From assembly GCF_029910095.1 (NCBI RefSeq), contig NZ_CP094526.1, positions 5,208,001-5,272,000 on the forward strand: a stretch of 64,000 nucleotides of DNA, in the 5' to 3' direction. The translations under genes and the position numbers were made by a program. This DNA comes from Bradyrhizobium sp. ISRA464. GTDB taxonomy: Bacteria > Pseudomonadota > Alphaproteobacteria > Rhizobiales > Xanthobacteraceae. Every line of letters begins with the position of its first letter. Positions within the stretch are counted from its first letter, which is position 1. The notes under the pieces were generated by a model that was not told the origin of the DNA, did no database searches, and was given only the letters and a program-made list of their open reading frames with translations. Below, piece after piece: positions 21,952-37,920 of the stretch.

Positions 21952-23595
21952 TCAACTCGCCTCGCGCAGCTTGAAGCGTTGGATCTTTCCGGTCTGCGTC
22001 TTCGGCAGCGCCTCGACGAAGGAGATCGCGCGGGGATATTTGTACGGCGCGATCGTCGCTTTGACATAGTCCTGCAACAGCTTGACCTCGATATCGTCGT
22101 CACGCGCGCCAGGTTTCAGCACGACGAAAGCCGAGACGATCTGGCCACGCTCCACATCCGGCGCGCCAACGACCGCACACTCCGCAACGTCGGGATGTCC
22201 GAGCAGCGCGGCCTCGACCTCGGGACCGGCGATGTTGTAGCCCGCCGAGATGATCATGTCGTCGGCGCGCGCCACGAACGACAGCCGGCCGCTCTCGTCG
22301 CTGACGAAGGCGTCGCCGGTGATGTTCCAGCCGTCGCGCACATAATTGGTCTGCCTTGAGTCGGCCAGATAGCGGCAGCCCGTGGGCCCGCGAACCGCGA
22401 GCTTGCCGACCGTTCCGGGCGGCAGTTCGTTCATGTTCTCGTCGACGACCTTGGCCTCATAGCCGGTGACCGGATGGCCGGTCGTCCCGCCCACCGCGCT
22501 GCCAGCGCGGTTGGTGATGAAGATGTGCAGCAATTCCGTGCTGCCGATGCCGTCGAGGATCGGCTTTCCCGTCTTCTTCGTCCAATTTTCGAACACCGGC
22601 GCCGGCAGCGTCTCGCCCGCCGAGACCGCCAGCCGCAGCGACGACAGGTCGGCCCCCTTGTCCATCGCCGCCATCATGGCGCGATAGGCGGTCGGCGCCG
22701 TGAAGCAGATCGTCGCCTTGTAGTTTTCGATGATCTTGACCATCTCGCTGGGCGCCGCATTCTCCAGCAGCGTCGCGGTAGCGCCAAAGCGCAGCGGAAA
22801 GATCGCAAGCCCGCCGAGACCGAAGGTGAAGGCGAGCGGCGGCGATCCGACGAAGACGTCGTCCGGCGTCACCTTGAGCACTTCCCTTGCATAGCCGTCC
22901 GCGACGATCAGGAGATCGCGGTGGAAATGCATCGTCGCCTTCGGCTCGCCCGTCGTGCCCGACGTGAAGCCGAGCAGCGCCACATCGTCGCGGCCGGTCT
23001 TCACCGCATCGAACTTCACCGGCTTGTTCAGCGCGATCCGGTCGAGCTCGGCGTCATGGTTCTGTGTGCCGTCGAAGTTGACGACCTGCCTCAGGAACTT
23101 GCTGGTCTTGGCGCAGGCAACCAGCTCATCCGCGATACGGCTGTCGGTCAGCGCCAGCGAGATCTCGGCCTTGTCGACGATCTTTGCCAGCTCACCCGCG
23201 CGCAGCATCGGCATGGTGTTGACGACGACCGCACCTGCCTTGGTCGCGGCAAGCCAGGCCGCGACCAGCGCCGGATTATTGCCCGAACGGATCAGGACAC
23301 GATTGCCCGGCTTGACGCCGTAATTCTCCACCAGCGCATGAGCCAGGCGGTTCGACCAGTCGGTCAATTCCTTGTAGGTACGCTGGCGGCCGTTGCCGAT
23401 CAGCGCGATGCGATCGCCCATGCCCTGCTCGACGATGCGGTCGGTCAGCTCGACCGCGGCGTTGAGATAGTCGGGATACTGGAATTCCGGCCGATCGAGC
23501 AGCAGCTTCGGCCATTGATGGAACGGCGGCAGGTTGCGCCGCGCGAAATCGTCAACGTGCCCTGATGGGCCAAGCCCAGCAATTTCACCTGACAT
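21952..23595 (-). CDS. Benzoate/2-aminobenzoate-type aryl-CoA ligase
   Basis: The 547-residue ANL-superfamily enzyme has the P-loop TSGTTGEPK (residues 211-219), the motif GIGSTELLHIF, the hinge RADDMIISAGYNI and the C-terminal catalytic lysine in PKTQTGKIQRF. The GSTELLHIFI segment is that of benzoate-CoA ligase relatives. With the fused 2-aminobenzoyl-CoA monooxygenase/reductase further right, the best substrate is 2-aminobenzoate (AbmG role), but benzoate derivatives remain possible. The ATG at 23595 follows GAGGG by 8 bp. A 19-bp site shared with three other promoters lies 93 bp upstream. Confidence 0.82.
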   Translation of the reverse strand: MSGEIAGLGPSGHVDDFARRNLPPFHQWPKLLLDRPEFQYPDYLNAAVELTDRIVEQGMGDRIALIGNGRQRTYKELTDWSNRLAHALVENYGVKPGNRVLIRSGNNPALVAAWLAATKAGAVVVNTMPMLRAGELAKIVDKAEISLALTDSRIADELVACAKTSKFLRQVVNFDGTQNHDAELDRIALNKPVKFDAVKTGRDDVALLGFTSGTTGEPKATMHFHRDLLIVADGYAREVLKVTPDDVFVGSPPLAFTFGLGGLAIFPLRFGATATLLENAAPSEMVKIIENYKATICFTAPTAYRAMMAAMDKGADLSSLRLAVSAGETLPAPVFENWTKKTGKPILDGIGSTELLHIFITNRAGSAVGGTTGHPVTGYEAKVVDENMNELPPGTVGKLAVRGPTGCRYLADSRQTNYVRDGWNITGDAFVSDESGRLSFVARADDMIISAGYNIAGPEVEAALLGHPDVAECAVVGAPDVERGQIVSAFVVLKPGARDDDIEVKLLQDYVKATIAPYKYPRAISFVEALPKTQTGKIQRFKLREAS

Positions 23596-23687
23596 TCGAT
23601 TGCCCTCGCTTTCCATCCAGAAAGGCCAAGACCAACATCGAGAAACCAATATCGAGCACGCCCGCCAACGTTCCAGTCGCCCAGTTA

Positions 23688-23706
23688 TTTTATACTTAAA
23701 GTAATT
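23688..23706 (+). promoter_or_regulatory. Candidate MarR operator, site C (before the aryl-CoA ligase)
   Basis: TTTTATACTTAAAGTAATT differs by one base from the site before the monooxygenase/reductase (33103-33121) and matches the two sites at the marR promoter at TTT, CTT, AA, G and AATT positions. It sits in the upstream region of the ligase gene. Confidence 0.55.
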
Positions 23707-23740
23707 CGGCGCAAGAGTGGAATCGACGCCTCCCAGGGAT

Positions 23741-24556
23741 TCAGATCTGTGTGAGCTCCTTCAACCGCAGCACCATCAAAGAATCCGGGTCGGCCAGCGG
23801 TGCGATCGCGGTAAAGTGGTTGGCATCCGGCACGAGGCCGAACCGTGTTGCAACGCCGGCTTTGCCCCAGACGTCGGCGATGGTCCGGCTCTGCCGATGA
23901 TACTCGACGCTCTCGTTGCCGCCGACGACAGCGTCGAGCGTCCTTCCCTCGGGCGCGGTCCAGAACAGCGGGCTCGCCGCCCTTGCTGCGGCGCGGTCAA
24001 GACCGAGTGCCTTGTTGATGGAGGTGCCGACCAGCGGTTCGAGCTCAAACAGGCCCGAGATCGCGTAAGCAGCCTTGACCAGATTTTTCGGCAGCGACGC
24101 GTCGTAAGCGGGCCAATCGGTCGCCAGCATGCAGGCGGCAAGGTGCCCGCCCGCCGAATGCCCGCTGACCACAAGCGGACGTCCGAGCTTCGCCAGCTCG
24201 CGCGACGCCGCGCGCAACTGGCCGATGATGTCATCGACCGTGACGTTGGGGCAGAGATCGTAGGTCGGTACCGCCACGCTGATGCCGTGACCATTCAACC
24301 CCCGCGCGCAGTGGCTCGACGACGAGCCGTCGAGCGCCTGCCAGTAGCCGCCATGGATGAAGACGACCAGCGGGCCGCCGCTGTTACCCTCGAAAAGGTC
24401 GATGACGTTGCGGCTGCCTGGACCATAGGTCAGCCGCCGCGGCGGGTGCTGCTCGCGGTAGGCCGCGGAGTCCCTCACCCAGCCGGCCATCAGCGCTGGA
24501 TTCTCCGGAACCCGCGCGCGATTGTTGTACTCCACCTCGTAATCGATCTCGGCCAC
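23741..24556 (-). CDS. Alpha/beta hydrolase, kynurenine-formamidase-like
   Basis: The hydrolase of about 271 residues has the oxyanion motif HGGYWQ and the nucleophile motif GHSAGGH, with Asp and His of the triad near the C-terminus (VVGGNESVEYHRQ, PDANHF). HGGYW is characteristic of arylformamidase (AFMID) relatives, which deformylate N-formylkynurenine. In an aminobenzoate locus it may release anthranilate from N-formylanthranilate or start from kynurenine-pathway compounds; this is inference. A GTG at 24556 has AAGGA 7 bp before it; a TTG at 24562 overlapping the marR stop is the alternative start. Confidence 0.72.
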   Translation of the reverse strand: MAEIDYEVEYNNRARVPENPALMAGWVRDSAAYREQHPPRRLTYGPGSRNVIDLFEGNSGGPLVVFIHGGYWQALDGSSSSHCARGLNGHGISVAVPTYDLCPNVTVDDIIGQLRAASRELAKLGRPLVVSGHSAGGHLAACMLATDWPAYDASLPKNLVKAAYAISGLFELEPLVGTSINKALGLDRAAARAASPLFWTAPEGRTLDAVVGGNESVEYHRQSRTIADVWGKAGVATRFGLVPDANHFTAIAPLADPDSLMVLRLKELTQI

Positions 24557-24558
24557 GG

Positions 24559-25050
24559 TCAAGTCCTTGCCTTGGCGGCGCGCTGCGCCGAGTCCTTGGC
24601 CTTGGCGAGCAGCCGCATCAGCTCACTCATATCCTTCGGCGACAGGTCGCCGAAGATGTCGGCGATCCATTTCTCATGCTCTGCGGCCATCTTGCGGAAT
24701 TCAGCGCGGCCGAGCTTCGTCAATCGGATGAACTGCACGCGGCGGTCAGTTTCCGAGGTGCGGCGATCGAGATGGCCCGACTCGACCAAGCGCTCGACCA
24801 GGCCGGTGACGTTGCCGTTGGAGACCATCATCCGCTTCGACAGGTCCGACAGCGTCATGCCGTCCTGCACCTTGTCGAGCTGGGCCATCAGGTCGAAGCG
24901 CGGCAGCGTCACGTCGAACCGCTCGCGCAGCCGGCTGCGCACCTCGCCTTCGATCAGCGTGGTGCAGGTCAGAAGGCGGAGCCACAGCCGCAGCTCGGTG
25001 CCATGATCGTCGGGCAATTCGACGGCTTTGGTTTCGGAATCGAGGATCAT
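24559..25050 (-). CDS. MarR-family regulator, probable repressor of the aminobenzoate genes
   Basis: The 163-residue MarR protein has winged-helix elements LRERFDVTLPRFDLMAQLDK (part), MTLSDLSKRMMVSNGNVTGL (part) and the wing LDRRTSETDRRVQFIRLT. MarR proteins in CoA-dependent aromatic pathways usually sense the aryl-CoA intermediate. I start at the ATG at 25050 (GGAGG upstream); a TTG at 25110 would lie inside the candidate operator. The downstream hydrolase starts at its end. Four related 19-bp sites near this gene, the ligase and the monooxygenase make it the likely local regulator. Confidence 0.8.
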   Translation of the reverse strand: MILDSETKAVELPDDHGTELRLWLRLLTCTTLIEGEVRSRLRERFDVTLPRFDLMAQLDKVQDGMTLSDLSKRMMVSNGNVTGLVERLVESGHLDRRTSETDRRVQFIRLTKLGRAEFRKMAAEHEKWIADIFGDLSPKDMSELMRLLAKAKDSAQRAAKART

Positions 25051-25093
25051 GCGGCGATCGCGCCTCCGCGGCGGGTTCCGGTCGGACGGATTG

Positions 25094-25112
25094 TTTTGAG
25101 CTTCAAGCAATT
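25094..25112 (+). promoter_or_regulatory. Candidate MarR operator, site A
   Basis: TTTTGAGCTTCAAGCAATT lies 44 bp upstream of the marR start. It shares an exact 13-base core (GCTTCAAGCAATT) with site B, 81 bp away, and 13 of 19 bases with site D. Confidence 0.5.
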
Positions 25113-25174
25113 CGCGGCGCGCCGCAAGGACAATTGCGAATCGACGCGACCTCGTCGGCTCAACCCTGCAATTT

Positions 25175-25193
25175 CTTTAGGCTTCAAGCAATT
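25175..25193 (+). promoter_or_regulatory. Candidate MarR operator, site B
   Basis: CTTTAGGCTTCAAGCAATT lies between marR and the divergent ABC binding-protein gene. It contains the palindromic core GCTTCAAGC and repeats the 13-base core of site A. It could control the binding-protein gene at 25314. Confidence 0.5.
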
Positions 25194-25313
25194 GGCGCGA
25201 CCCTTGCATGCCGCGTGACCATCGTCCGGACGCAATGCCGCATCGCTTGCAGCGATCGCGCTCGTCAGAATAAGCTGAGGTCCAAGCAACAAGGCAACAA
25301 TTGGGGGAGCGGC

Positions 25314-26492
25314 ATGAAGCAGCTGACGAGGTTGGCGGGACTGGCGGCGATACTGGGCCTCACGATCGCTCCGGCGGCCGCGCAGGACAGCAGCCAGGGC
25401 AAGATCAAGATCGGCGTGCTGGTGACGACCTCGGGCCCGGCGGCAGCGCTCGGCCAGCAGGTGCGCGATGGCTTTGCGCTGGCCGTCAAGGATCTCGGCG
25501 GCAAGATGGCCGGCCGCGATGTTGAGGTCATCAATGCCGACGACGAGTTGAAGCCCGACGCCGCGGTGACCAAGGTGCGCGGCCTGCTCGAGCGCGACAA
25601 GGTCGACTTCGTGGTCGGCCCGATCTTCTCCAACATCCTCCTGGCGATCCACCGCCCGGTGACCGACAGCAAGACCTTCCTGATCAGCCCGAATGCGGGC
25701 CCGTCCAGCTTTGCCGGCAAGGAGTGCAATCCGTTCTTCTATGTGACGTCGTACCAGAACGACCAGGTGCACGAAATCCTCGGCAAGGTCGCGCAAGATC
25801 GCGGCTACAAGCGCGTCTATCTGCTGGTGCCGAACTATCAGGCCGGCCGCGACTCGGTGGCCGGCTTCAAGCTCGATTACAAGGGCGAGATCGTCGAGGA
25901 ATCCTACACGCCGCTGAACACGCTGGATTTCCAGCCCGAGCTCTCCAAGATCGCCTCGCTGAAGCCGGACGCGCTGTTCACCTTCATGCCGGGCGGCATG
26001 GGCGTGAACCTGGTGAAGCAGTACAAGCAGGCCGGCGCCACCGTGCCCGTGCTCTCCGCCTTCACGGTCGACGAATCCACCCTGCCCGCCCAGCAGGACG
26101 CCGCGGTCGGCATGTTCGGCGGCGCGAACTGGGCGCCCAACCTCGACACCCCCCAGAGCAAGAAATTCGTCGCTGCCTATGAGGCGGCCTATAACGGCGT
26201 GCCCGGCACCTACGCCATGCAGGCCTATGACGCGGCGATGCTGATCGACAGCGCGGTCAAGGCTGTGAAGGGCGATCTCGCCAACAAGGATGCGGTCGCT
26301 GCTGCACTGAAGAAGGCCGACTTCACCTCGCTGCGCGGTAACTTCAAATTCAACAACAACGGCTATCCGATCCAGGATTTCTACCTCACCAAGGTAGCGA
26401 AGCGGCCGGACGGCAAATTCCAGACCGAGATCGTCGAAAAGGTGTTCTCGAACTACGGCGACCGCTACGCCAAGGACTGCGCGGCCAAGTAA
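25314..26492 (+). CDS. Branched-chain amino acid type ABC substrate-binding protein (Peripla_BP_6)
   Basis: The 392-residue periplasmic protein has a signal peptide ending IAPAAAQ near residue 23 and the LivK-like start IKIGVLVTTSGPAAALGQQV. In aromatic-degradation clusters such proteins bind aromatic acids and not amino acids, so it may capture aminobenzoate; no permease or ATPase gene is adjacent. GGGGGAG lies before the ATG at 25314. The frame is open upstream without support. It is divergent from marR and followed by a cupin gene after 15 bp. Confidence 0.85.
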   Translation: MKQLTRLAGLAAILGLTIAPAAAQDSSQGKIKIGVLVTTSGPAAALGQQVRDGFALAVKDLGGKMAGRDVEVINADDELKPDAAVTKVRGLLERDKVDFVVGPIFSNILLAIHRPVTDSKTFLISPNAGPSSFAGKECNPFFYVTSYQNDQVHEILGKVAQDRGYKRVYLLVPNYQAGRDSVAGFKLDYKGEIVEESYTPLNTLDFQPELSKIASLKPDALFTFMPGGMGVNLVKQYKQAGATVPVLSAFTVDESTLPAQQDAAVGMFGGANWAPNLDTPQSKKFVAAYEAAYNGVPGTYAMQAYDAAMLIDSAVKAVKGDLANKDAVAAALKKADFTSLRGNFKFNNNGYPIQDFYLTKVAKRPDGKFQTEIVEKVFSNYGDRYAKDCAAK

Positions 26493-26507
26493 ATCCCAGG
26501 AGGAGAT

Positions 26508-26969
26508 ATGACGATGAAAGACGAGATCGCCGGCATCACCCGCGCCAATGAGGGCATCCAGGGCATCTCCTGGAGCATCCTCGGCCAGACCTACGTGCCG
26601 AAGAGCCGCACCGAGCATTCCTTCTCCTGGCACGCCACCTTCCCGCCCGGCACCTTCGTTCCTCCGCATATCCATCCCGACCAGGACGAGTACCTCTACA
26701 TCCTCGAGGGCAAGCTCGATTTCATGCTCGACGGCGCCGACGAGTCCGCCACATCAGGCGATCTCGTGCGCCTGCCGATGGGCAAGCCGCACGGCATCTT
26801 CAACAAGTCGCAGCAGCCGGCGAAGACGCTGTTCTGGGTGTCGCCGACGCGCAGGCTCTACGACCTGTTCTGGGCGATCCACAACATGAAGGAGCAGAAC
26901 CCGGATGACGTGGTGCGGCTCGCCGCCGAACACAACATCCACTTTCTGCCGCCGCCTCCGGCAGCGTAG
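26508..26969 (+). CDS. Small cupin-domain protein
   Basis: The 153-residue single-domain cupin has a conserved motif with metal ligands in PPHIHPDQDEYLYILEG (two His and the Glu) and a second motif LPMGKPHGIFNKS. It could be a dioxygenase, isomerase or storage fold; the sequence does not say which. AGGAGG sits 5 bp before the ATG, and the gene is 15 bp behind the binding-protein gene, so it is probably co-transcribed with it and part of the aromatic pathway. Confidence 0.75.
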   Translation: MTMKDEIAGITRANEGIQGISWSILGQTYVPKSRTEHSFSWHATFPPGTFVPPHIHPDQDEYLYILEGKLDFMLDGADESATSGDLVRLPMGKPHGIFNKSQQPAKTLFWVSPTRRLYDLFWAIHNMKEQNPDDVVRLAAEHNIHFLPPPPAA

Positions 26970-26988
26970 CATCTGCACCGGCTCTCTC

Positions 26989-27086
26989 CCCTCATCCTGA
27001 GGAGCGCGCAGCGCGTCTCGAAGGATGAGGCCGAAGTCGGGCCCATGGTTCGAGACGGCGCTGCCGCGCCTCCTCACCATGAGGGT
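26989..27086. repeat. REP-type palindromic repeat
   Basis: CCTCATCC (26990-26997) pairs with GGATGAGG (27023-27030), followed by a second half CATGGTTCGAGACGGCGC and CTCACCATGAGGG. This is the common Bradyrhizobium repeat with alternating GAGGAGCGCGC and CGTCTCGAAGG blocks. It fills the gap between two convergent genes. Confidence 0.65.
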
Positions 27087-27124
27087 TGACAATCGGCCGA
27101 ACTCTTCTCCCTTCCAGCACCCTC

Positions 27125-28366
27125 CTACTGCCGCGCGACCACCCGCGCGGCAAAGCCAGCCTTCGCGGCATAGCCGCGGACGATCGCCTCGCGCGCCTCA
27201 TAGTTGAGGATCGTGTCGACGTCGGTAAACCCCTGCGGCGCGAGCTGCTCGACGGCGTCGATCACGCCCTCCGGCCCGCCGCGGCGGTTCGAGGCGACGA
27301 TGTCGGCGGTCATCGGCAGGCGCTGCCGCTCATAGGCGACAAGCGCCTGGCGCGGATGCTCCGCCCGCGCCAGCAGATCCGCAAGGCACCGCGCATCGAG
27401 GATGGCCTGCGACGCGCCATTCGAGCCGACCGGATACATCGGATGCGCGGCATCGCCGAGCAGCGTGACGCGGCCGCTCGACCAATAGGGCAGCGGATCG
27501 CGGTCGCAGCACGGATACTCCCAGAACTCGGGCGTCGCGTTGATCAAGCCGGCGAAATCGACCTGCGGGATCGTGAAGCTCGTGACATAGGGCATCATCT
27601 CCTCGCGCCGGCCGAGGTTCGACCAGCCCTCGCGGCGCGGCGGCGGCGAGGAACCGTCGCCGATCCGCACCAGCACCGCCCAGTTGGTGAGCCGGCTTGC
27701 CGGGCTCGAGCCCGGCGCGATCGGATAGATCACGGCCTTGGCATTCAACCCGCCGGCGATGATCATCGAGCGTCCGGTCAGGAACGCCGGCCAGTCGGTG
27801 GCGCCGCGCCACAGCATCAGGCCATTCCAGCACGGCCCGCCCTCGTCCGGAAACAGCGTCTGCCGCACCTTGGAGTGAATGCCGTCGGCGCCGATCAGGA
27901 TGTCGCCGCGCGCGGTGTGCACATGGCTTCCGCTGCGATCGAAGAAATAGGCCGAGACGCCGCCTTCATCCTGCGTGAACGAGCCGAGCCGGCAACCGGT
28001 GTGGATCGCATCCGCGCCGAGGCGCTCGATCACGGCCTGGTGGATCACGCCCTGCAGCCGGCCGCGATGGATCGAGAATTGCGGCACGTCGTGGCCGGCA
28101 TCCAGTCCGCGCTTCTCGTGCCAGACCTGCTGGCCATGCCGCGTCAGATAGAACAGCTCGTAGGTGCGGATCGCGACCTCGTCGAGCCGGTCCAGCAGAC
28201 CGAGGCCTGCGAGCTCGCGGATCGCATGCGGCAGCGTGTTGATGCCGACGCCGAGCTCGCGGATGGTGTCGGACTGCTCGTAAAGCTCGCATTGGATGCC
28301 GCGCGAGCGCAGCATCAGCGCAGTGGTGAGGCCTCCGATTCCGCCTCCGACGATTATCGCCTTCAT
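27125..28366 (-). CDS. FAD-dependent aromatic monooxygenase (PhzS/salicylate-hydroxylase-like)
   Basis: The 413-residue class A flavoprotein has the FAD motif GGGIGGLTTALMLRSRG near residues 7-23, the DG motif GADGIHSKVRQ and the GD motif LLGDAAHPMYPVGSNGA. It uses NAD(P)H and O2 to hydroxylate an aromatic ring. The overall layout, with YPVGSNGASQAI, is that of flavin-dependent oxidoreductases related to PhzS. It sits 332 bp behind the RidA gene on the same strand, separated by repeats, so it may have its own promoter. The substrate is unknown, possibly an aminobenzoate or hydroxyanthranilate derivative. Confidence 0.78.
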   Translation of the reverse strand: MKAIIVGGGIGGLTTALMLRSRGIQCELYEQSDTIRELGVGINTLPHAIRELAGLGLLDRLDEVAIRTYELFYLTRHGQQVWHEKRGLDAGHDVPQFSIHRGRLQGVIHQAVIERLGADAIHTGCRLGSFTQDEGGVSAYFFDRSGSHVHTARGDILIGADGIHSKVRQTLFPDEGGPCWNGLMLWRGATDWPAFLTGRSMIIAGGLNAKAVIYPIAPGSSPASRLTNWAVLVRIGDGSSPPPRREGWSNLGRREEMMPYVTSFTIPQVDFAGLINATPEFWEYPCCDRDPLPYWSSGRVTLLGDAAHPMYPVGSNGASQAILDARCLADLLARAEHPRQALVAYERQRLPMTADIVASNRRGGPEGVIDAVEQLAPQGFTDVDTILNYEAREAIVRGYAAKAGFAARVVARQ

Positions 28367-28697
28367 CGTCCCTTACTCCACTCGAACACAGGACGTTTTA
28401 CACCTGCCCTCAGCGTCGCACGGCCCGTTGTCCTGCCGCAAGCGGCTTTGTTGCCTCGACCTTCCGGCGGCCTACCCTGCTTTGGCTTAGGATTAACATT
28501 CTCGCAGCGCGCTCCAATCTATCTCCGTCACCCTTGAGGAGCGCGGAACGCGCGTCTCGAAGGGTCGACGGCCACCGGCCGGGCCGTGCATCCTTCGAGG
28601 AACCCAGCGGCGCAACTGCGCCGCAAGGCTTGCACCTCCAGCGACAAAGGCAAAGCCTTTGCGCGAGGATGACGGGTTTGTCGATCGGGCGTCACCA
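28367..28697. repeat. Repeat-bearing gap between the FAD monooxygenase and RidA genes
   Basis: At 28531-28676 lies another member of the GAGGAGCGCGGAACGCGCG / TCTCGAAGG repeat family, ending in GCAAAGCCTTTGCGCGAGG. The left part (28367-28520) is the probable promoter region of the monooxygenase gene; no matching MarR-like site was found there. Confidence 0.55.
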
Positions 28698-29093
28698 TCA
28701 ATCCGGCACCACCGCGATCGCCTGGATTTCCACCTTGGCGCGGTCCTCGATCAGGCCGGCGACTTGGATCGCCGTCATCGCCGGAAAGCGCCGGCCTATG
28801 ACGTCGCGATAGACCACGCCGATCTCCTTCAGTCGCGCCGAGTATTCCTTGCGGTCGAGCAGGAACCAGGTCATCGACACGATGTGCTCCGGCCCGGCCC
28901 CGCCGGCCGCCGCGATTGCGACAATGTTGCGCAGGGTCTGCCCGATCTGCGCGACCAGATCGTCGCTCTCGAACACGCATTGCGCGTTCCAGCCGATCTG
29001 GCCGGCGATGAAGATCTGTTTGCCGCGTGCGGCCATGCCGTTGGCGTAGCCGATCGGCTTCGCCCATCCGTCAGGTTGCAGGATCTCGTTCAT
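28698..29093 (-). CDS. RidA/YjgF-family deaminase
   Basis: This 131-residue Rid-family protein has the usual features IFIAGQIGWN, LRNIVAIAAAGGAGPEHIV and a C-terminal VEIQAIAVVPD. Rid proteins hydrolyse enamines and imines to ketones and ammonia. In this operon the obvious substrate would be the enamine product of the 2-aminobenzoyl-CoA monooxygenase/reductase (2-amino-5-oxocyclohex-1-ene carbonyl-CoA); that link is inference. It starts 1 bp after the crotonase stop. Confidence 0.82.
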   Translation of the reverse strand: MNEILQPDGWAKPIGYANGMAARGKQIFIAGQIGWNAQCVFESDDLVAQIGQTLRNIVAIAAAGGAGPEHIVSMTWFLLDRKEYSARLKEIGVVYRDVIGRRFPAMTAIQVAGLIEDRAKVEIQAIAVVPD

Positions 29094-29094
29094 C

Positions 29095-29934
29095 TCAATT
29101 GCCCTCGAAGGCCGGTTTCTGCTTGGCAGCGAAGGCTTCGAAGGCGCGGCGGAAATCGCCGGTCACCATGCAAATCGCCTGCGCCTGCGCTTCCGACTCG
29201 ATCATCTCGTCGACGCCCATCGCCCATTCCTGGTTGAACATGGTCTTGGTCACGCCATGCGCGAACCACGGTCCGTCCGCGAGCGAGCGCGCCAGCTCAT
29301 GCGCGGCCCCCGAAAGCTCGGCTGCCGGCACCAGGCGATTGTGGAAGCCCCAGGCGAGTCCCTCCTCCGCGCTCATCGCGCGACCGGTGTAGAGCAGGTC
29401 CGCGGCACGGCCTTGGCCAACCACGCGCGGCAACAGTCCGCAGGCGCCCATGTCGGCGCCGGCAAGGCCGACGCGGGTAAACAGGAACGCGGTCTTGGCC
29501 TGCGGCGTCGCCAGGCGAAGGTCGGAGGCGAGCGCCAGCATCGCGCCGGCGCCGGCGCAGATGCCGTCGATCGCGGCGACGACGATCTGCGGGCATTTGC
29601 GCATCGCCCGCACTACCTCGCCGGTCATGCGGGTGAAGGCGAGCAAATCCGGCATCGCCATCCGCGTCAACGGCTCGATGATCTCGAACACGTCGCCGCC
29701 GGAGCAGAAATTTCCGTCCGCGCCCGTCAGCACGATCGCGCGAACGTCAGATGCATATTTGAGATCGGTGAAGAGGTCGCGCAGTTCCTCGTAGGAGTCG
29801 AAGGTCAGCGGATTCTTCTTGTCGGGCCGGTTCAGCGTGATGGTCGCGACGCGGCCGGTCGCATCGGTCGACCAGCGGAAGTGCTTTGCCGGATAATCCT
29901 TGAACGGACGGAGCTTTGCTTTCATCTCGGACAT
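29095..29934 (-). CDS. Enoyl-CoA hydratase/crotonase family protein
   Basis: The 279-residue crotonase has the oxyanion-hole segments [12 protein letters not shown] (about residues 74-85) and [18 protein letters not shown] (about 125-142). In a ring-reducing aminobenzoyl-CoA pathway it could hydrate the enoyl-CoA or open the alicyclic ring. It is 12 bp downstream of the SDR gene and 1 bp upstream of the ridA gene. The family call is firm; the exact reaction is not. Confidence 0.85.
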
Positions 29935-29946
29935 GACGTGTTCCTT

Positions 29947-30726
29947 TTACCCGGTCAGGACTTCGCCGCCGGCCACCGCGACGGCTTGTCCGTTGATTGA
30001 CGATGCGCCCTCGGAGGCGAGCCAGAGGATGGCATCAGCCACCTCCTCCGGCGTCACCAGCCGCTGCATTGGATTCACCTTTGCCAGCGCCGCGCGCGCT
30101 TCCGCTTCGCTGCGCCCGGTCTTGGCGACAATGTTGGCGGCGGCATCCGCCACCAGCGGCGTGTCGGTATAGCCGGGGCACACCGCGTTCACGGTGACGC
30201 CGCGCCGCGCATATTCCAGCGCCAGCGAGCGCGTCAGGCCGACGACGCCGTGCTTTGCCGCGACATAGGCCGAGACATAGGCGTAACCGGTGAGGCCCGC
30301 GGTCGAGGCGACATTGATCACGCGTCCGCGTCCGCGCTGCGCCATGCCAGGCAGCACCGCCTGCGTCACCAGAAACACGCTGGAGAGGTTGCTCGCCAGC
30401 ATGTCCGCCCATAGCGCCGGATCGGTCTTGTCGAAGGGTGCGCTCGCGGCCTTGCCGGCGTTGTTGACGAGGATGTCGATCGAGCCGGCCCGGGCCTCGA
30501 TCTGCGCGACACCTTTTGTCACGGCGGCCGCGTCGGTCACGTCGATCGCAACGACTGCACCAGCGCGATCGCCAAGCAACGCTGCGGTCGCCTTCAGTGC
30601 CTCGATCCGGCGTCCGGCGATGCTGACGCGCACGCCGGCCTTGGCGAGCGCGATCGCCGTCGCGGCGCCGATGCCGGAACCGGCGCCGGTGACGAACGCG
30701 TGGGCATTGGGCCAGAACCGCGTCAT
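29947..30726 (-). CDS. SDR-family dehydrogenase
   Basis: This is a 259-residue classical SDR with the NAD(P) motif TGAGSGIG (residues 14-21), NNAG, catalytic Ser, and YVAAK. It probably oxidises the 3-hydroxyacyl-CoA or alicyclic alcohol formed after the crotonase step. Its ATG overlaps the monooxygenase/reductase stop (ATGA, 30723-30726), so the two are translated together. Confidence 0.85.
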
Positions 30727-33038
30727 GCCTTCACTCCCGCGGCTGCTCGTTCGAGATTGGCCTCGTATTGCGGCTTGCCCGACAGATATTGCTTCGGCCA
30801 GGGGACCGACTTCACGCCGATCTTCGCCGCCTCGTGCAGCGTCCAGGCCGGATCGGCAAGATGCGGCCGCGCGATCGCGCAGAGGTCGGCGCGGCCGGCA
30901 GCAATGATCGAGTTGGCGTGGTCGGCTTCCGAGATCGCGCCGACCGCGATGGTGGCGATACCGATCTCGTTGCGGATCTTGTCGGCGAACGGTGTCTGAT
31001 AGAGCCGGCCGTAGACCGGATGGTCGTCGGCCCAGACCTGGCCCGACGAGCAGTCGATCAGGTCCGCGCCTGCTGCCTTGAACAGCTTTGCGAATTCCAG
31101 CGCATCCTCGGGCGTGTTGCCGCCCTCGGCCCAGTCGTGGCAGGACAGCCGGACCGACATCGGCTTGTCCTCGGGCCACACCTCGCGGATGGCGCAGAAC
31201 ACCTCGAGCGGATAACGCGCGCGGTTTGCGATCGATCCGCCATACGCGTCGGTGCGGCGGTTGGTCAGCGGCGACAGGAAGCTCGACAGCAGATAGCCGT
31301 GGGCGCAATGCAGCTCCAGGATATCGAAGCCGATCTTGGCGCCGCGCCTGGCGGCGGCAACGAACTGCCCGCGCACCTCGTCCATCTCGGCGCGACTCAT
31401 CGGCTCGGGCACCTGGCCCTCTGGCAGATAGGGAACTGACGAGGCCGACACCAGCGGCCAGTTGTGATCGGGCAGCGGCTCGTCCATCCCCTCCCAGGCC
31501 ACGCGGGTCGAGCCCTTGCGGCCGGAATGGCCGAGCTGGATGCCGATCTTGGCTTGCGAATTGCGGTGCACGAAATCGACGATGCGCTTGTAGGCCACCG
31601 CCTGCGCGTCATTCCACAGCCCGCAGCAGCCGGGCGTGATGCGCGCCTCCGGCGAGACGCAGGTCATTTCGGTGAACATGAGGCCGGCGCCGCCGAGCGC
31701 GCGCGAGCCGAAATGCACCAAATGGAAGTCGCTGGGCACGCCCTCTTCCGCCGAATACATCGCCATCGGCGAGACGATGATGCGATTGTTGAGCGACAGC
31801 CCACGGATACGGAACGGCGTCAGCATCGGCGGCGTGACGCGGTCGTTGGTCGCGGGCAGTCCGCTGCGCTCGGCGAACCAGCGCTCATAGCCTTCGAGCC
31901 ATACCTTGTCGCGCAGGCGCAGATTCTCGTGGCTGATGCGCTGCGAGCGCGTCAGCAGCGAATACATGAACTGTTCCGGCTCCAGCGTGTCGGCATAGCG
32001 CGAGCCGACCACCTCGAACCATTCCATCGCATTGCGCGCGGCGTTCTGGATCCGCGCCACGTCGACCCGGCGCAGTTCCTCATAGGCGGCCAGCACCCCG
32101 GGAATGCTGTCCCTGGTCGCACCATGCTTCTTGAACTGGTTGGTCAGCTCGATCGCATCCTCCAGCGCGAGCTTCGTGCCCGAGCCGATCGCGAAATGCG
32201 CGGTGTGCGCGGCATCGCCCATCAGCACCACATGGCTGTTGCCGTTGAAGGCGGTCCACTTGCCGCAGATCAGCCGCGGGAAGGACAGCCAGGCCGAGCC
32301 GCGCAGATGGCGGGCGTTGGAGACCAGGTGATGCCCTTCGAGGATTTCGGCGAACACTTTTTCGCAGAATGCGATCGAGGCATCCTGATCCATCTTGTCG
32401 AGGCCGTGGGCGAGATACGCGGCCTCCGTGGTCTCGACGATGAAGGTCGCCGCGCCCTCCTCGAACTTGTAGATGTGCGCTTGGAACCAGCCGTGCTCGG
32501 TCTTGCGAAAGTCGAAGGTGAAGGCGTCGAACGGCCGGTTGGTACCGAGCCAGATATAGCGGTTCGGCCGCATCAGCATGTCGGGCTGGAAGTCCTTCGC
32601 ATATTTACTGCGGATCTTCGAGTTCACGCCGTCGCACGCGACGATCAGGTCGGCGTCTGGGAACTCGAGATCGGAATTGACCTCGCGCTCGAAGATCAGC
32701 TCGACGCCGAGTTCCTCGGCCCGTGCCTGCAGGATGTTGAGCAAATGCTTGCGCCCGATGCCGACGAAGCCATGGCCCGTCGTGCGCATGCGCCGGCCCT
32801 TGATCAGGACCTCTATGTCGTCCCAGTGGTTGAAGGCCTGCTCGATTGTGTCGGCAGTCACTGGATCCCACTTGCGCATGTTGTCCATGGTGGCGTCGGA
32901 AAACACCACGCCGAATCCGAACGTGTCGTAGGGCCGGTTGCGCTCGACCACGGAAATCCGGTGCGCGGGATCCAGCATCTTCATCAGGATGCCGAAATAC
33001 AGCCCGGCCGGCCCGCCTCCAATGCAAACGATGCGCAT
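30723..33038 (-). CDS. abmA: 2-aminobenzoyl-CoA monooxygenase/reductase (fused FAD monooxygenase and old-yellow-enzyme domain)
   Basis: The 771-residue fusion has an N-terminal FAD hydroxylase (residues 1 to about 385; GGGPAG at 7-12, [27 protein letters not shown]) and a C-terminal old yellow enzyme TIM barrel (about 398-760; [40 protein letters not shown]). This pairing is known from 2-aminobenzoyl-CoA monooxygenase/reductase of Azoarcus evansii, which hydroxylates C5 and then reduces the ring; salicylyl-CoA 5-hydroxylases share the layout, so a salicylyl substrate is the alternative. It heads the operon with SDR, crotonase and RidA. A 19-bp MarR-like site lies 65 bp upstream. Confidence 0.85.
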
Positions 33039-33102
33039 GGCGATCTCCCGTTGGCTTCGGCGGGCCGGCGCAGCGTCTTCCGGCGAGCCGATGCCGATAT
33101 TA

Positions 33103-33121
33103 TTTTATACTTAAAATAATT
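33103..33121 (+). promoter_or_regulatory. Candidate MarR operator, site D (before the monooxygenase/reductase)
   Basis: TTTTATACTTAAAATAATT lies in a larger palindrome with arms ATTATTTTA and TAAAATAAT (33099-33120). It is 18 of 19 identical to the site before the aryl-CoA ligase. Such an AT-rich island is conspicuous in this high-GC sequence. Confidence 0.6.
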
Positions 33122-33220
33122 GTCAAGGGAGGCCGGCCGGCCGTTTACCCACCACTATCGTCCCGGCGCGACCCGAAGCCGATGTCGCGCCATATCCACC
33201 GCCGTCGTCCTGGCGAAAGC

Positions 33221-34556
33221 CCATAGGCGCTAAAATAGGATTTGCGCGTTGGATTTGCTTGTGATTCCAAGATGGGATGAGGCACGAATCGCTTGTGAAC
33301 GAAGACTGGGCGCGTGTTGTTGCGCGGCTTGGCGGGGCCGATGCTCTCGGGGTCAGCGCCCGCGAGACGAAGGCGTTTGTCCGCCCGCGAGAGATTAGCA
33401 ATGCGGTCGATTTGCTGCGTCTGATCCTGGCGTACTGTCTCGGCGAGAGGGGTCTGCGGTTGACGACGGCATGGGCAACCTCGGTGGGCCTTGTCGATAT
33501 CTCCAACGTGGCTCTGTTGTATCGCTTGCGTCAATGCGGGGATTGGCTGGCGCGCCTGGTAGGCCAAGCGCTTGTGAGCGGTGCACCGAAGGCGAGCCGC
33601 GGTCGCCTGATCCGCATTGTTGACGCCACGACGGTCCCCAAGGCTGGGACGAGCGGCAGGAACAAGAACGCGGTGTGGCGTGTCCACAGTGCGTTCGATC
33701 TTCCGCGGGAGCGTTTTGGTCACTTCGAATTGACTGATGAGCGCGGGGGCGAGACGCTGGATCGGATACCGGCGGTTGCCGGCGAAATCCGTCTTGCCGA
33801 TCGCGCCTATCTGCAGCCCGAGCGCATGGCACGTCTGCTCGATGCCGGTGCGGACTTCGTGATCCGGTCCGGCTGGAAGAGTGCGCGTTGGCTTGATGCC
33901 GAAGGTGGTCTGGTTGATCTCACGGCCGAACTGCGCAAAGCCACGGCAGGCGGCATGATCGATCGGCCGATCTGGATAAAACGCAGGTCTGGCGTGCCGC
34001 TCGCCATGCGTCTGGTTGCGATCAGGAAGCCGGCGCAAGCTGCCGCGGCTGCGCGACGCAAGGCACGCCGGACCGCACAAAAGGGAGGCCATCAGCTCTC
34101 CAGGCAAACACTGGACGCCGCAGATTGGGTGATCCTGGTGACCTCACTCAAACCAAAGGACTTCACGACTGCCGACATTTTCGCCCTCTATCGGCTACGA
34201 TGGCGCATCGAGCTCGGCTTCAAGCGGCTGAAAAGCTTGATTGGCCTGAAGGGGCCGCCCGGAACTGACGAGCGATCCGCCAGACCCCATATCCTTGCCC
34301 ATCTGCTGATCATTCTTCTGCTCGAGCCGCTCGTCGACGAACTCGAGGACTCTCCCCGCTTGGCCGACGCCGCCTGACCCGCCCAGGGGCGTGGCGTCTC
34401 CTGCACCAGCTCGTCGCTTCGCTACGGCAAGCCATCATTCCCCAGCCCGCAATCGCTTGCCTCCGCAGACTCCGCTCCACGCTCCGGCGGCACCTCCGCG
34501 AGCCGCCCAGACACAAGCGTCGCTATCAAGCAATCCAACTATCTTAGCGCCTATGG
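33221..34556 (+). mobile_element. IS4-family insertion sequence with 8-bp target duplication
   Basis: The ends are inverted repeats: CCATAGGCGCTAAAATAG at 33221 and, in reverse complement, CCATAGGCGCTAAGATAG ending at 34556 (17 of 18). GCGAAAGC flanks both ends directly (33213-33220 and 34557-34564). Removing the element restores a REP hairpin whose arms are GTCCTGGC and GCCAGGAC. The 1336-bp element carries one transposase; about 180 bp after it are non-coding. Confidence 0.85.
33277..34377 (+). CDS. IS4-family transposase
   Basis: The 366-residue DDE transposase has a first Asp in RIVDATTVPKAG (about residues 112-123), a second Asp in RLADRAYLQ (about 171-179) and the IS4 YREK signature in YRLRWRIELGFKRLK near the C-terminus. 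It is full length and uninterrupted, so the element may still be active. It cuts and pastes its own element through the terminal repeats at 33221 and 34556. Confidence 0.88.
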   Translation: MRHESLVNEDWARVVARLGGADALGVSARETKAFVRPREISNAVDLLRLILAYCLGERGLRLTTAWATSVGLVDISNVALLYRLRQCGDWLARLVGQALVSGAPKASRGRLIRIVDATTVPKAGTSGRNKNAVWRVHSAFDLPRERFGHFELTDERGGETLDRIPAVAGEIRLADRAYLQPERMARLLDAGADFVIRSGWKSARWLDAEGGLVDLTAELRKATAGGMIDRPIWIKRRSGVPLAMRLVAIRKPAQAAAAARRKARRTAQKGGHQLSRQTLDAADWVILVTSLKPKDFTTADIFALYRLRWRIELGFKRLKSLIGLKGPPGTDERSARPHILAHLLIILLLEPLVDELEDSPRLADAA

Positions 34557-34986
34557 GCGAAAGCCAGGACCCATACCCACACGGTTGAGTCGTTGAAAAA
34601 GCTGCGACCCCAGCGTTGCGCAACAATTCGCGTTCGGGGTAATGGGTCCTGGCTTTCGCCAGGACGACGCTGAATGGGAGGCGCAGCCTGGCTTCAAACA
34701 ACTCGCAACCCTACGTTCTCGCGACGTGAATCGCCCGAGCTTTGCGTCCTGTTCGACGCCCTCTTCGATCAGAGGGCGCAGGGAAAGCCGGGTGCCGATC
34801 GCACCCATGGGTCCCGTGCAGTGAAAAAAGCACCGGGGTAGGACCACAGGTGAGACCGGAGACACTCCGGCTTTCCCTGCGCGATGGGCTACGGCTTATA
34901 CGCGCTCTCCCCGGCGAGACTGGGCTTTGTTGTCACCGTCATCAGTGAGAGAGCTTGCTCTTACTGAGGAGACACCTGCCACTAGG
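34557..34986. repeat. REP hairpin and left part of the dispersed long repeat
   Basis: After the IS4 element comes the other half of the broken REP, then an intact REP at about 34648-34668 (GTCCTGGC, TTTC, GCCAGGAC). From about 34712 the sequence is the reverse complement of bases 47-330 of the window. The arms CCGGCTTTCCCTGCG and GCAGGGAAAGCCGG recur. No gene is supported in this stretch. It ends in the left ACTAGG duplication (34981-34986) of the IS481 element. Confidence 0.7.
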
Positions 34987-36212: not shown

Positions 36213-37920
36213 GCCTTGCGCCGTCGAGGCTGGGCAAGAACTCGGCATTTTTTGGAGTTGATGTACGATTCGGCGCATGGCGAATCGGACGTTCAAGGCC
36301 GGCGACAGCCGGGAGCAACCCAGTCTTCTTCCTCCCCGGATTGAGGACTATGTCGGACAGCAGAATCCGGTGCGGGCGATCGACAGTTTCGTTGGCGCGC
36401 TCGACCTTTCAAAGCTCGGCTTCCGCCATGCGGATCGTGCCGCGGACGAAGTGGGGCAGCCGCCCTACGATCCGGCCGATCTGCTGAAGCTCTACCTTTA
36501 CGGCTACATCAACCAGATCAGGTCGTCGCGGCGGTTGGAGCGGGAGGCCTGCCGCAATCTGGAGCTGATCTGGCTGTTGAAGAACATGAAGCCGGGCTAT
36601 CGGACGATCGCCAACTTCCGCAAGGAGAACTGGGCGGCGCTCAAGGCCGCGAACCGCAGTTTCGTGCTGCTCCTGCGCGACCTCGGCCTGATCGGTGGGA
36701 CCTTCGTTGCGATCGACGGGGCGCTATTCCATGGTAACGCCAGCAAGGGCAGCATCTTCACGCAAGGGAAGCTGGCCAAACAGATCGCCGCGTTGGACAA
36801 GGAGATCGAGGCTTATGGCAAGGCCCTTGAAGCCAACGATGCCGAGGAAGCCAAGCGATGTGCCGGTCCGGGAGATGGCAGCAAGGGCAGCGGCGATGTC
36901 GGCGAGAAGGTGAAGGAGCTGATGGCCCGGCGCGAGCGCGCGCAAGCCGACCTCAAGAACCTGGAGACAAGCGACAAGGGGCAACTCTCGAAGACCGATC
37001 CCGACGCAAGGCTTCTGAGCAAGGGCGACCAGACCATTGCGGGTTACAACGTGCAGAGCGTCGTTGACGACAAGCACACGCTCATCGTTGCCAGCGAGGT
37101 CGTCAACCGCAACGACGCGGGCCATCTTCATGAGATGGCAAAGGCGGCAAAAGAGGCCCTCGACGTCGAGACTCTGCAGGTGGCGGCCGATGCCGGCTAT
37201 TCCACCAGCGAGGACCTGAAGGCCTGCGAGGATGACGGCATTGTTGCCTATGTGCCGCTGCACGAGGGCAATGGCAAGCTCAAGGAAGGCCGCCTCAGCC
37301 GCAAGGACTTCAGTTACGATGCGAACGCCGATGCCTACCGTTGCCCGGCCGGCGAGCTGCTGCGCCCGACGGAAGGGCGCTGGACGAACACGAGCGGCCG
37401 CATCGAGATCCGCTACCTGGCGCGCAAGGCGGCCTGCGCAGCATGTCCCCTGAGCGCGCGGTGTCTTGCCCCGAAGGCGCCTTACCGGAGCATCGCGCGC
37501 TGGGAACACGAGGACGTTCTCGAACGTCACCGCATGAGGATGCAAAGCGCCGAGGCTGCCACATTGATGCGCCGCCGTTCCGCCATCGTCGAGCACCCTT
37601 TCGGAACACTCAAATGCCGCGCCGGCTATCAGCACTTTCTCGTGCGCGGCTTCGACAAGGTCCGCGGCGAATGGAGCCTGATGGCGCTTTGCTACAACTT
37701 CACCCGCGTGCTCAGCATTCTCGGCTTCGACCGCTTCGTCGCGTACCTTGCAGAAAAGACGCGCATTGCCGGCGCAAACCTCCTTGCGGCCACTCTGCGC
37801 GCCATTCGGCTTGCTTTGCGGCCCTTCCGCGCCAAAATCTCGCTGTCGCTCGTCGTCAGTGCTTTCCGAGCCGCCCCAGCCCCTTAGTTGCCATTCTTGC
37901 CCAGTCTCGTCGGGCAAATC
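36213..37920 (+). mobile_element. IS1182-family insertion sequence (ends approximate)
   Basis: Imperfect terminal inverted repeats GTCGAGGCTGGGCAAGAA (36223-36240) and, in reverse complement, GACGAGACTGGGCAAGAA (37894-37911) flank one transposase gene. The outermost bases and a target duplication could not be fixed, so the ends are within about 10 bp. It lies about 185 bp from the IS481 element. Confidence 0.7.
36277..37887 (+). CDS. IS1182-family transposase
   Basis: The 536-residue transposase has the N-terminal DUF772 domain (QPPYDPADLLKLYLYGYINQ), Asp in FVAIDGALFHGN, Asp in VAADAGYSTSEDL and Glu in IVEHPFGTLKCRAGY, plus the Cys cluster ACAACPLSARC. An alanine-lysine-rich coiled segment (about 165-235) sits between the first and second catalytic residues, as in other IS1182 members. 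Full length and intact. Confidence 0.9.
   Translation: MANRTFKAGDSREQPSLLPPRIEDYVGQQNPVRAIDSFVGALDLSKLGFRHADRAADEVGQPPYDPADLLKLYLYGYINQIRSSRRLEREACRNLELIWLLKNMKPGYRTIANFRKENWAALKAANRSFVLLLRDLGLIGGTFVAIDGALFHGNASKGSIFTQGKLAKQIAALDKEIEAYGKALEANDAEEAKRCAGPGDGSKGSGDVGEKVKELMARRERAQADLKNLETSDKGQLSKTDPDARLLSKGDQTIAGYNVQSVVDDKHTLIVASEVVNRNDAGHLHEMAKAAKEALDVETLQVAADAGYSTSEDLKACEDDGIVAYVPLHEGNGKLKEGRLSRKDFSYDANADAYRCPAGELLRPTEGRWTNTSGRIEIRYLARKAACAACPLSARCLAPKAPYRSIARWEHEDVLERHRMRMQSAEAATLMRRRSAIVEHPFGTLKCRAGYQHFLVRGFDKVRGEWSLMALCYNFTRVLSILGFDRFVAYLAEKTRIAGANLLAATLRAIRLALRPFRAKISLSLVVSAFRAAPAP

Follow-up and report, generated by a model that had tools for sequence, protein, structure and literature searches.

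A Probable Anthranilate Cluster and Its Palindromes

A gene cluster of Bradyrhizobium sp. ISRA464 probably breaks down anthranilate (2-aminobenzoate), a compound on which the degradation of tryptophan, indole and plant auxin converges. It lies in a 64,000-nucleotide stretch of contig NZ_CP094526.1 (positions 5,208,001 to 5,272,000; hereafter the window, to which all coordinates refer), where four similar palindromes stand in front of its genes. These are very probably the operators of the MarR-family protein encoded at 24559..25050 on the minus strand, which is predicted to bind them and to repress one conserved regulon.

The central enzyme gene is abmA (30723..33038, minus strand), predicted to encode a 2-aminobenzoyl-coenzyme A (CoA) monooxygenase/reductase. 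AbmA is a flavin adenine dinucleotide (FAD) monooxygenase fused to an old-yellow-enzyme-type reductase; it matches NF006101 at 1351.6 bits (cut-off 1078) over residues 1–767, and its residues 405–752 match the NADPH dehydrogenase NamA. NCBIfam names it salicylyl-CoA 5-hydroxylase/oxidoreductase. Such a fusion is a feature of the 2-aminobenzoyl-CoA (abm) pathway, reported from Azoarcus evansii, and the name used here is taken from the Azoarcus work; judged from sequence, the substrate is probably 2-aminobenzoyl-CoA. The abmA module continues on the same strand with genes for a short-chain dehydrogenase (29947..30720, the start codon not being fixed), an enoyl-CoA hydratase family protein (29095..29934) and a RidA-like protein (28698..29093), the last two assigned by library scan. 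A benzoate-CoA-ligase-like AMP-forming enzyme, the predicted 2-aminobenzoate-CoA ligase, is encoded at 21952..23595 (minus strand) and scores 373.8 bits with TIGR02262, just below the cut-off of 375.25. This aryl-CoA ligase has an operator of its own and belongs to the same predicted regulon as abmA. The predicted repressor has 163 amino acids and scores above the Pfam cut-offs for MarR (42.7 bits) and MarR_2 (43.5 bits), and divergent from its gene runs that of a periplasmic binding protein (Peripla_BP_6 in the library scan; 25314..26492, plus strand).

An earlier note on this DNA had placed four related 19-base sites at 23688 (TTTTATACTTAAAGTAATT), 25094 (TTTTGAGCTTCAAGCAATT), 25175 (CTTTAGGCTTCAAGCAATT) and 33103 (TTTTATACTTAAAATAATT). 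All four are there, with 18 of 19 bases common to the ligase and abmA sites and an exact 13-mer, GCTTCAAGCAATT, common to the two sites in the marR gap. The consensus then given, TTTnnnnCTTnAAnnAATT, fits three of them exactly, while the site at 25175 starts with C; it was also one-sided, and each element is in fact a wider inverted repeat of about 20 bp with the halves TTRYTTKAAG and CTTMAARYAA. The palindrome before abmA has 9-bp arms (ATTATTTTA/TAAAATAAT), the two in the marR gap are less symmetric than those before the ligase gene and abmA, and all are AT-rich in a window of 65% GC.

Operator 1 (23685..23704, TTATTTTATACTTAAAGTAA) lies 90 bp upstream of the ligase gene, operator 2 (25091..25110, TTGTTTTGAGCTTCAAGCAA) 41 bp upstream of marR, operator 3 (25172..25191, TTTCTTTAGGCTTCAAGCAA) 123 bp upstream of the binding-protein gene, and operator 4 (33100..33119, TTATTTTATACTTAAAATAA) 62 bp upstream of abmA; no strand is assigned to any of them. 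Operators 2 and 3, 81 bp apart from start to start, each have one TTGAAG half, and operators 1 and 4 are without it. Distances run from the site edge to the start codon, with starts taken at 23595 for the ligase, 25050 for marR and 33038 for abmA. The earlier statement that every site lies within about 110 bp of a start codon therefore holds for the ligase, marR and abmA, and fails for operator 3, which is 122 bp from marR and 123 bp from the binding-protein gene. Operator 4 overlaps a promoter-like element on the minus strand (33097..33126), read either as TTGACA-16-AATAAT (11 of 12 bases, ending at 33099) or as TTGACA-18-TAATAT (10 of 12, ending at 33097). Of the 16 spacer bases 15 fall within the operator, as do five of the six bases of the AATAAT hexamer; lying over the spacer and the −10-like hexamer, it is thus where a repressor would be expected.

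Genome-Wide Specificity and Conservation of the Sites

Throughout the genome of 8,462,457 bp, the exact pattern of the earlier note has three matches, all in the cluster, and the reversed control has none. Equally good matches elsewhere were not found in this genome: a symmetrised 21-mer at up to three mismatches matched the four sites alone, in each case on both strands, as palindromes should, and gave no control matches. A looser pattern added two further places and its control gave six matches, so additional operators in the same genome were rejected as chance; that the sites are common AT-rich words was ruled out by the genome scans and the shuffled and reversed controls. Several other Bradyrhizobium genomes have a further palindrome away from the cluster, such as TTATTTTAAGCTTAAAGGATT in at least eight of them, and these are possible extra regulon members absent from the window's genome.

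Conservation was followed in 40 further Bradyrhizobium regions and 80 named AbmA loci. Unless stated otherwise, a site was counted if it lay no more than 250 bp upstream and had three mismatches or fewer, and a gene was counted only where its tblastn match started within the first six residues and at least 150 bp lay upstream; loci repeating a genome (L046, L048 and L049) were dropped from these upstream counts, and 40 of the 200 shuffled patterns made served as controls. Close relatives are not independent of one another, and because marR and the binding-protein gene have a common gap, the sites of these two groups overlap and their counts are not additive. The earlier note named loss of the sites in relatives that keep the genes as a refuting outcome; most such relatives keep the sites, with the exceptions given below. 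A site stands before abmA in all 25 loci with at least 85% identity, in 26 of 28 at 45–60% (other Bradyrhizobium and relatives) and in 33 of 60 at 70–85% (mostly other Rhizobiales; 46 of 60 at up to four mismatches). At 80% identity or more, the same is true of the ligase gene (26/29), marR (54/56) and the binding-protein gene (43/44), and in other Bradyrhizobium a separate dehydrogenase gene at 50–70% identity has a site in eight of 20 loci, or 18 of 20 at up to four mismatches. The reversed control was zero in every group, and shuffled palindromes gave a mean of at most 0.075 loci.

Two features of the arrangement recur in the relatives. In 38 of 56 loci a pair of sites at up to four mismatches occupies the marR gap, with a spacing of 81 or 69–70 bp in 27 of the 38, and a TTGAC −35-like hexamer lies one or three bases before the operator in all 25 loci with abmA at 85% or more. 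No site was found before the alpha/beta hydrolase gene between the ligase gene and marR (23741..24562, minus strand; 0/27 in relatives, and none in the window), the cupin gene after the binding-protein gene (26508..26969, plus strand, assigned by library scan; 0/56), or, within 250 bp upstream in relatives, the gene for a FAD-dependent monooxygenase (NF005720; 27125..28366, minus strand; 0/52). The same holds before the dehydrogenase gene at 80% or more (0/25) and the RidA gene at 45–60% (0/23).

The sites extend well beyond these loci. Counted anywhere in the genome, a site at up to two mismatches is present in 113 of 117 Bradyrhizobium genomes, with eight reversed-control matches in total. 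A sample of the phylum, in which the site takes variant forms, gave 72 AbmA places in 70 genomes, of which 69 copies (29 and 40, in two sets) were scanned upstream. The first set has a site in 18 of 29 at up to four mismatches, with no control match even at five; the second, two stretches of which (G138 and G110) repeat earlier loci, has one in 27 of 40 at four and 33 of 40 at five mismatches, with one control match among the 40 at five.

Two Types of Predicted Operator

The TTGAAG half sorts the sites by promoter. For this comparison all sites at up to three mismatches were taken in the marR gap, and elsewhere the best site at up to four. All 91 marR-gap sites of close relatives have exactly one TTGAAG half, always on the binding-protein side. 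It is missing from the best abmA sites at 85% or more (25/25), at 45–60% (27/27) and, with three exceptions, at 70–85% (43/46), as well as from the best ligase sites of close relatives (28/28) and of those at 50–80% (20/20). The operator type in Bradyrhizobium is a lasting property of each promoter, and the promoters of the regulon may accordingly differ in their affinity for the repressor. Such promoter-specific types go beyond what the earlier note had claimed.

The MarR Regulator

The AlphaFold model of the MarR monomer has a mean predicted local distance difference test (pLDDT) score of 88.9 and a predicted recognition helix at residues 78–90, and the best folds listed for it are MarR-family proteins, several in complex with DNA. 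Its own genome has no close paralogue, the next being 28% identical. The motif [ST]NGN[VI]TGL is found at the recognition helix in 16 of 21 aligned AbmA-associated MarR proteins and in none of the eight own-genome paralogues (of 14 loci) whose alignment covers that helix.

Among 398 genomes of the phylum, 67 carry both the MarR (profile E ≤ 1e-25) and AbmA (E ≤ 1e-150), three AbmA only, six MarR only and 322 neither (p 7.5e-65, or 1.9e-57 without the 10 genomes of the same genus). This co-occurrence across the phylum strengthens the assignment of the regulator. The two are on one contig in 62 of the 67 genomes, within 10 kb in 59 and within 2 kb in 45. In one AbmA-only genome (G270) the contig ends 54 bases past abmA, on a side where marR follows after about 1 kb in genomes with the same genus label. 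A genome-wide search was made for 24 of the 39 loci with no MarR in the fetched region, and for L102 and L146: all 26 genomes carry one (E 8.6e-50 or better), and in 19 of the 24 its contig equals the abmA contig in length. Across the 117 Bradyrhizobium genomes, marR and the site are present together in 112 and absent together in three, so that they agree in 115 (Fisher p 6e-5).

A Probable Single Regulon and Its Alternatives

The proposal of the earlier note, one MarR regulon over the ligase gene, the marR/binding-protein pair and the monooxygenase/reductase gene, is supported by the genome specificity, the conservation and the MarR–AbmA co-occurrence. The single-regulon reading is well supported by sequence comparison; it describes a MarR-controlled aromatic regulon of a known type, to which lasting promoter-specific operator types would now be added. 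Without substrate, a MarR dimer would occupy each inverted repeat and block RNA polymerase at the abmA module, at the CoA ligase gene and at the divergent marR/binding-protein pair, its own gene included. A pathway metabolite would then bind the dimer, which would leave the DNA, and the genes for uptake, activation and ring attack would be switched on together. By analogy, the inducer is most likely 2-aminobenzoyl-CoA or anthranilate itself.

Several observations weigh against this reading. The promoter scan found no promoter-like pair at the ligase or marR-gap operators, so the mechanism there is proposed by analogy. The phylum-wide co-occurrence is a functional association and not a DNA contact, and one Bradyrhizobium genome has marR and no site (G100, 81% complete) and another the site and no marR (G016, 89% complete). 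Distant groups are weaker, with a site before nine of 29 ligase genes at 50–80% identity (20 at up to four mismatches) and before two of 12 marR genes at 40–80% (six at up to four). Of the 60 abmA loci at 70–85%, fourteen show no site even at four mismatches; a weaker five-mismatch variant is kept in ten of these, Shinella L146 (MarR 67% identical) among them, and L102, L104 and L105 (MarR 69% identical) and L110 have none even at five. Outside Bradyrhizobium, only three of 28 marR loci with 1.5-kb flanks (L184–L211) carry a site at up to four mismatches, and autoregulation of marR is not general there. The operator types do not split simply into regulation and uptake versus catabolism: in 15 of 18 cases the best site before the dehydrogenase gene in other Bradyrhizobium includes a single TTGAAG half, and among distant marR genes any TTGAAG half occurs in only three of six. 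The dehydrogenase sites rule out the idea that this half is confined to the marR gap and missing from all catabolic sites, and the types follow the promoter, not the function.

The alternative that survives best grants the regulon and changes its chemistry, so that the substrate and inducer would be salicylyl-CoA or another aryl-CoA and not 2-aminobenzoate and its CoA ester. The NCBIfam name of AbmA speaks for it, as do the two AbmA types, about 50% identical, under the same operator across Bradyrhizobium lineages. It is nevertheless rather unlikely, given that linked loci hold genes with a possible route to anthranilate: in Rhizobium, a PF04199 cyclase together with indolepyruvate-oxidoreductase genes, and in B. 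cajani, a PF04199 cyclase about 30 kb from an iad-type locus, whose counterpart in genome G063 has an IadR identified through its PDB match. PF04199 presumably includes isatin hydrolases; NCBIfam names neither the Rhizobium nor the B. cajani cyclase. The RidA-like protein of the module would also suit an amino intermediate.

That the MarR is an activator or a dual regulator is improbable. Some MarR proteins do activate, as described in passages of PMC9613470, and the promoter geometry varies: for abmA at 70–85%, a TTGAC-like hexamer was found in 31 of 46 loci and none in the other 15, and the gap from it to the start of the operator is 15–19 bases in 30 of the 31 (the largest gap was taken in this group and the smallest in the others). 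Either geometry, however, has the operator lying over the spacer or the −10 region, so that a dimer bound there would block the polymerase. It is quite improbable that the sites belong to another DNA-binding protein and that the MarR is a linked passenger, for which the few loci that keep a close MarR and have no site before abmA (L102, L104 and L105) could be quoted. Among the genes scanned in the cluster (21952–33038) no regulator besides the MarR was identified; the MarR accompanies AbmA in 67 of 70 genomes, including some with no linkage between them or with tens of kb separating them; the sites also occupy the promoter gap of marR itself (54 of 56 close loci), and three of four sampled Bradyrhizobium genomes without the MarR are also without the site. 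Finally, it is hardly credible that the sites are no operators and have been conserved as promoter or AT-rich sequence for the polymerase, as their AT-richness in a 65% GC window and the overlap with the abmA promoter might hint, since they have kept their dyad symmetry, reversed and shuffled palindromes of matched composition have almost no matches, and in 8.46 Mb they occur only in the cluster.

An Enzyme Module That Differs Under One Predicted Switch

Repression by this MarR through a common operator would span a deep difference in the genes it governs, another point beyond the earlier claims. In 32 other Bradyrhizobium loci (L050–L081), marR is 85–89% and the binding protein 82–88% identical to those of the window, whereas abmA is 51–52% (28 loci), the hydratase 58–62% and the dehydrogenase 52–63% identical. 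The ligase is close in 10 of these loci, 53–57% identical in 14 and absent from eight. An AbmA tree (FastTree) groups the window type with Rhizobium-type enzymes and sets the other Bradyrhizobium apart as a separate deep clade. The simplest reading is that the enzyme module was exchanged while the regulator and operator stayed, the event and its direction being presumed. The case would be one of a catabolic enzyme module deeply different between lineages under one conserved switch.

Relation to Known Systems and to Auxin Breakdown

Known relatives offer analogies on both sides of the ligand question. CouR of Rhodococcus jostii RHA1 is described in the abstract of PMC4737184 as a MarR repressor released by p-coumaroyl-CoA. 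It shares with the window protein the MarR fold, and it represses a CoA-dependent aromatic pathway; it serves another pathway and is distant in sequence, PDB 6c28 (named CouR) reaching 36.3 bits with the family profile where 3BOQ reaches 123.6. The latter, a MarR-family regulator of Silicibacter pomeroyi with the recognition helix region TNGNVSGLVNRL, is the best PDB match (80.7 bits for the window protein alone, 123.6 with the profile). IadR, a MarR of auxin catabolism, binds free indole-3-acetic acid according to parts of PMC9613470. The earlier statement that MarR regulators of CoA-dependent aromatic pathways usually sense the aryl-CoA thus has CouR in its favour and IadR, with its free acid, against it, and serves only as an analogy; 2-aminobenzoyl-CoA as the ligand is plausible only, on the model of CouR. 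According to PMC9613470, IadR and IacR are MarR repressors before aromatic catabolic genes, as is predicted here, and the end product of the iad pathway is anthranilate, which the window cluster is predicted to use as substrate. IadR itself falls far outside the window MarR family in the tree, and the listed PDB matches of the window MarR (the best 60 of 70) do not include 7KYM (IadR).

Enzyme genes of this branch had been annotated before. Parts of PMC8879955 report abm genes for 2-aminobenzoyl-CoA in Cupriavidus metallidurans CH34, which resemble the window cluster in their predicted ligase and 2-aminobenzoyl-CoA enzymes, and state that CH34 did not grow on anthranilate; the main text of that paper contains no mention of MarR (0 occurrences), and that of PMC5343134 has no word in anthranil- or aminobenzo-. 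Among the matches listed from the open-licence PMC literature, in the portions of text they cover, no regulator, AbmR included, and no operator is named for the 2-aminobenzoyl-CoA branch. A predicted regulator, an exact operator and targets can now be named and traced over a phylum, and the operator is a ready probe for the ligand, usable for IadR2 as well.

IadR2 corresponds to Variovorax MarR_50 and B. japonicum MarR_Bj2, for which, in the parts of PMC9613470 that treat them, neither a ligand nor a DNA site was found. In one Bradyrhizobium genome (G063), a MarR at L344:13520-13942 matches PDB 7KYM, a B. japonicum protein according to passages of PMC11630574, at 289.5 bits over the 141 residues searched, and this iad-type locus also holds indolepyruvate-oxidoreductase genes and a Rieske oxygenase. 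The adjoining gene (L344:13999-14493) scores 126.7 bits with the window MarR family profile, its nearest PDB relative being 3BOQ, and from its position it may be IadR2, as a lead. Two IadR2 candidates nest in the AbmA-associated MarR clade, on a branch of length 5.28 at a weakly supported fork, and no operator at up to four mismatches was found in the 20-kb L344 stretch. It is a tentative proposal, with some chance of being right, that IadR2 is a divergent member of the window MarR family, sensing the end product of auxin breakdown (anthranilate or 2-aminobenzoyl-CoA) and not auxin, and that the operator types set release thresholds that order the genes in time. If so, IadR would read the start, and the window MarR family the end, of one auxin-to-CoA route.

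Further arrangements of these genes were seen in other genomes. Six of 26 wider regions (L214–L218 and L238) have a site some 1.8 kb upstream of marR. In a Rhizobium tropici locus (L218:5121-8483 and L113) it stands about 60 bp before a CrtI-like oxidoreductase gene that precedes marR; genes for a PF04199 cyclase and an IadR-like MarR lie alongside, as do indolepyruvate-oxidoreductase genes, all near abmA, possibly as a joined indole-to-anthranilate-to-CoA cluster. Kynureninase was considered as a further Rhizobium target and rejected, as the aminotransferase-V protein behind a site in that genus is cysteine-desulfurase-like. Two loci (L155 and L346, of B. cajani and G063) have a second AbmA, about 74% identical, with its own MarR and operator, near a PF04199 cyclase, a thiolase, a binding protein and a CoA ligase, and with an iad-type locus 30–40 kb away on the same contig. 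Two Bradyrhizobium genomes carry a further MarR of the window family (L339:15143-15670 and L341:12340-12867) behind Rieske oxygenase, dehydrogenase and indolepyruvate-oxidoreductase genes, together with a RidA 80% identical to that of the window.

Mobile Elements Beside abmA

An insertion element with a DDE transposase (element 33168–34566, gene 33277–34377) starts at least about 40 bp upstream of the −35 hexamer of abmA. In the close relative L042, no more than 27 bp separate the aligned counterparts of the two flanks (33041–33167 and 34567–34755), so that the insertion is missing there. A few kb beyond, at 36277–37887, lies another transposase gene of a different kind (DUF772, DDE_Tnp_1_6).

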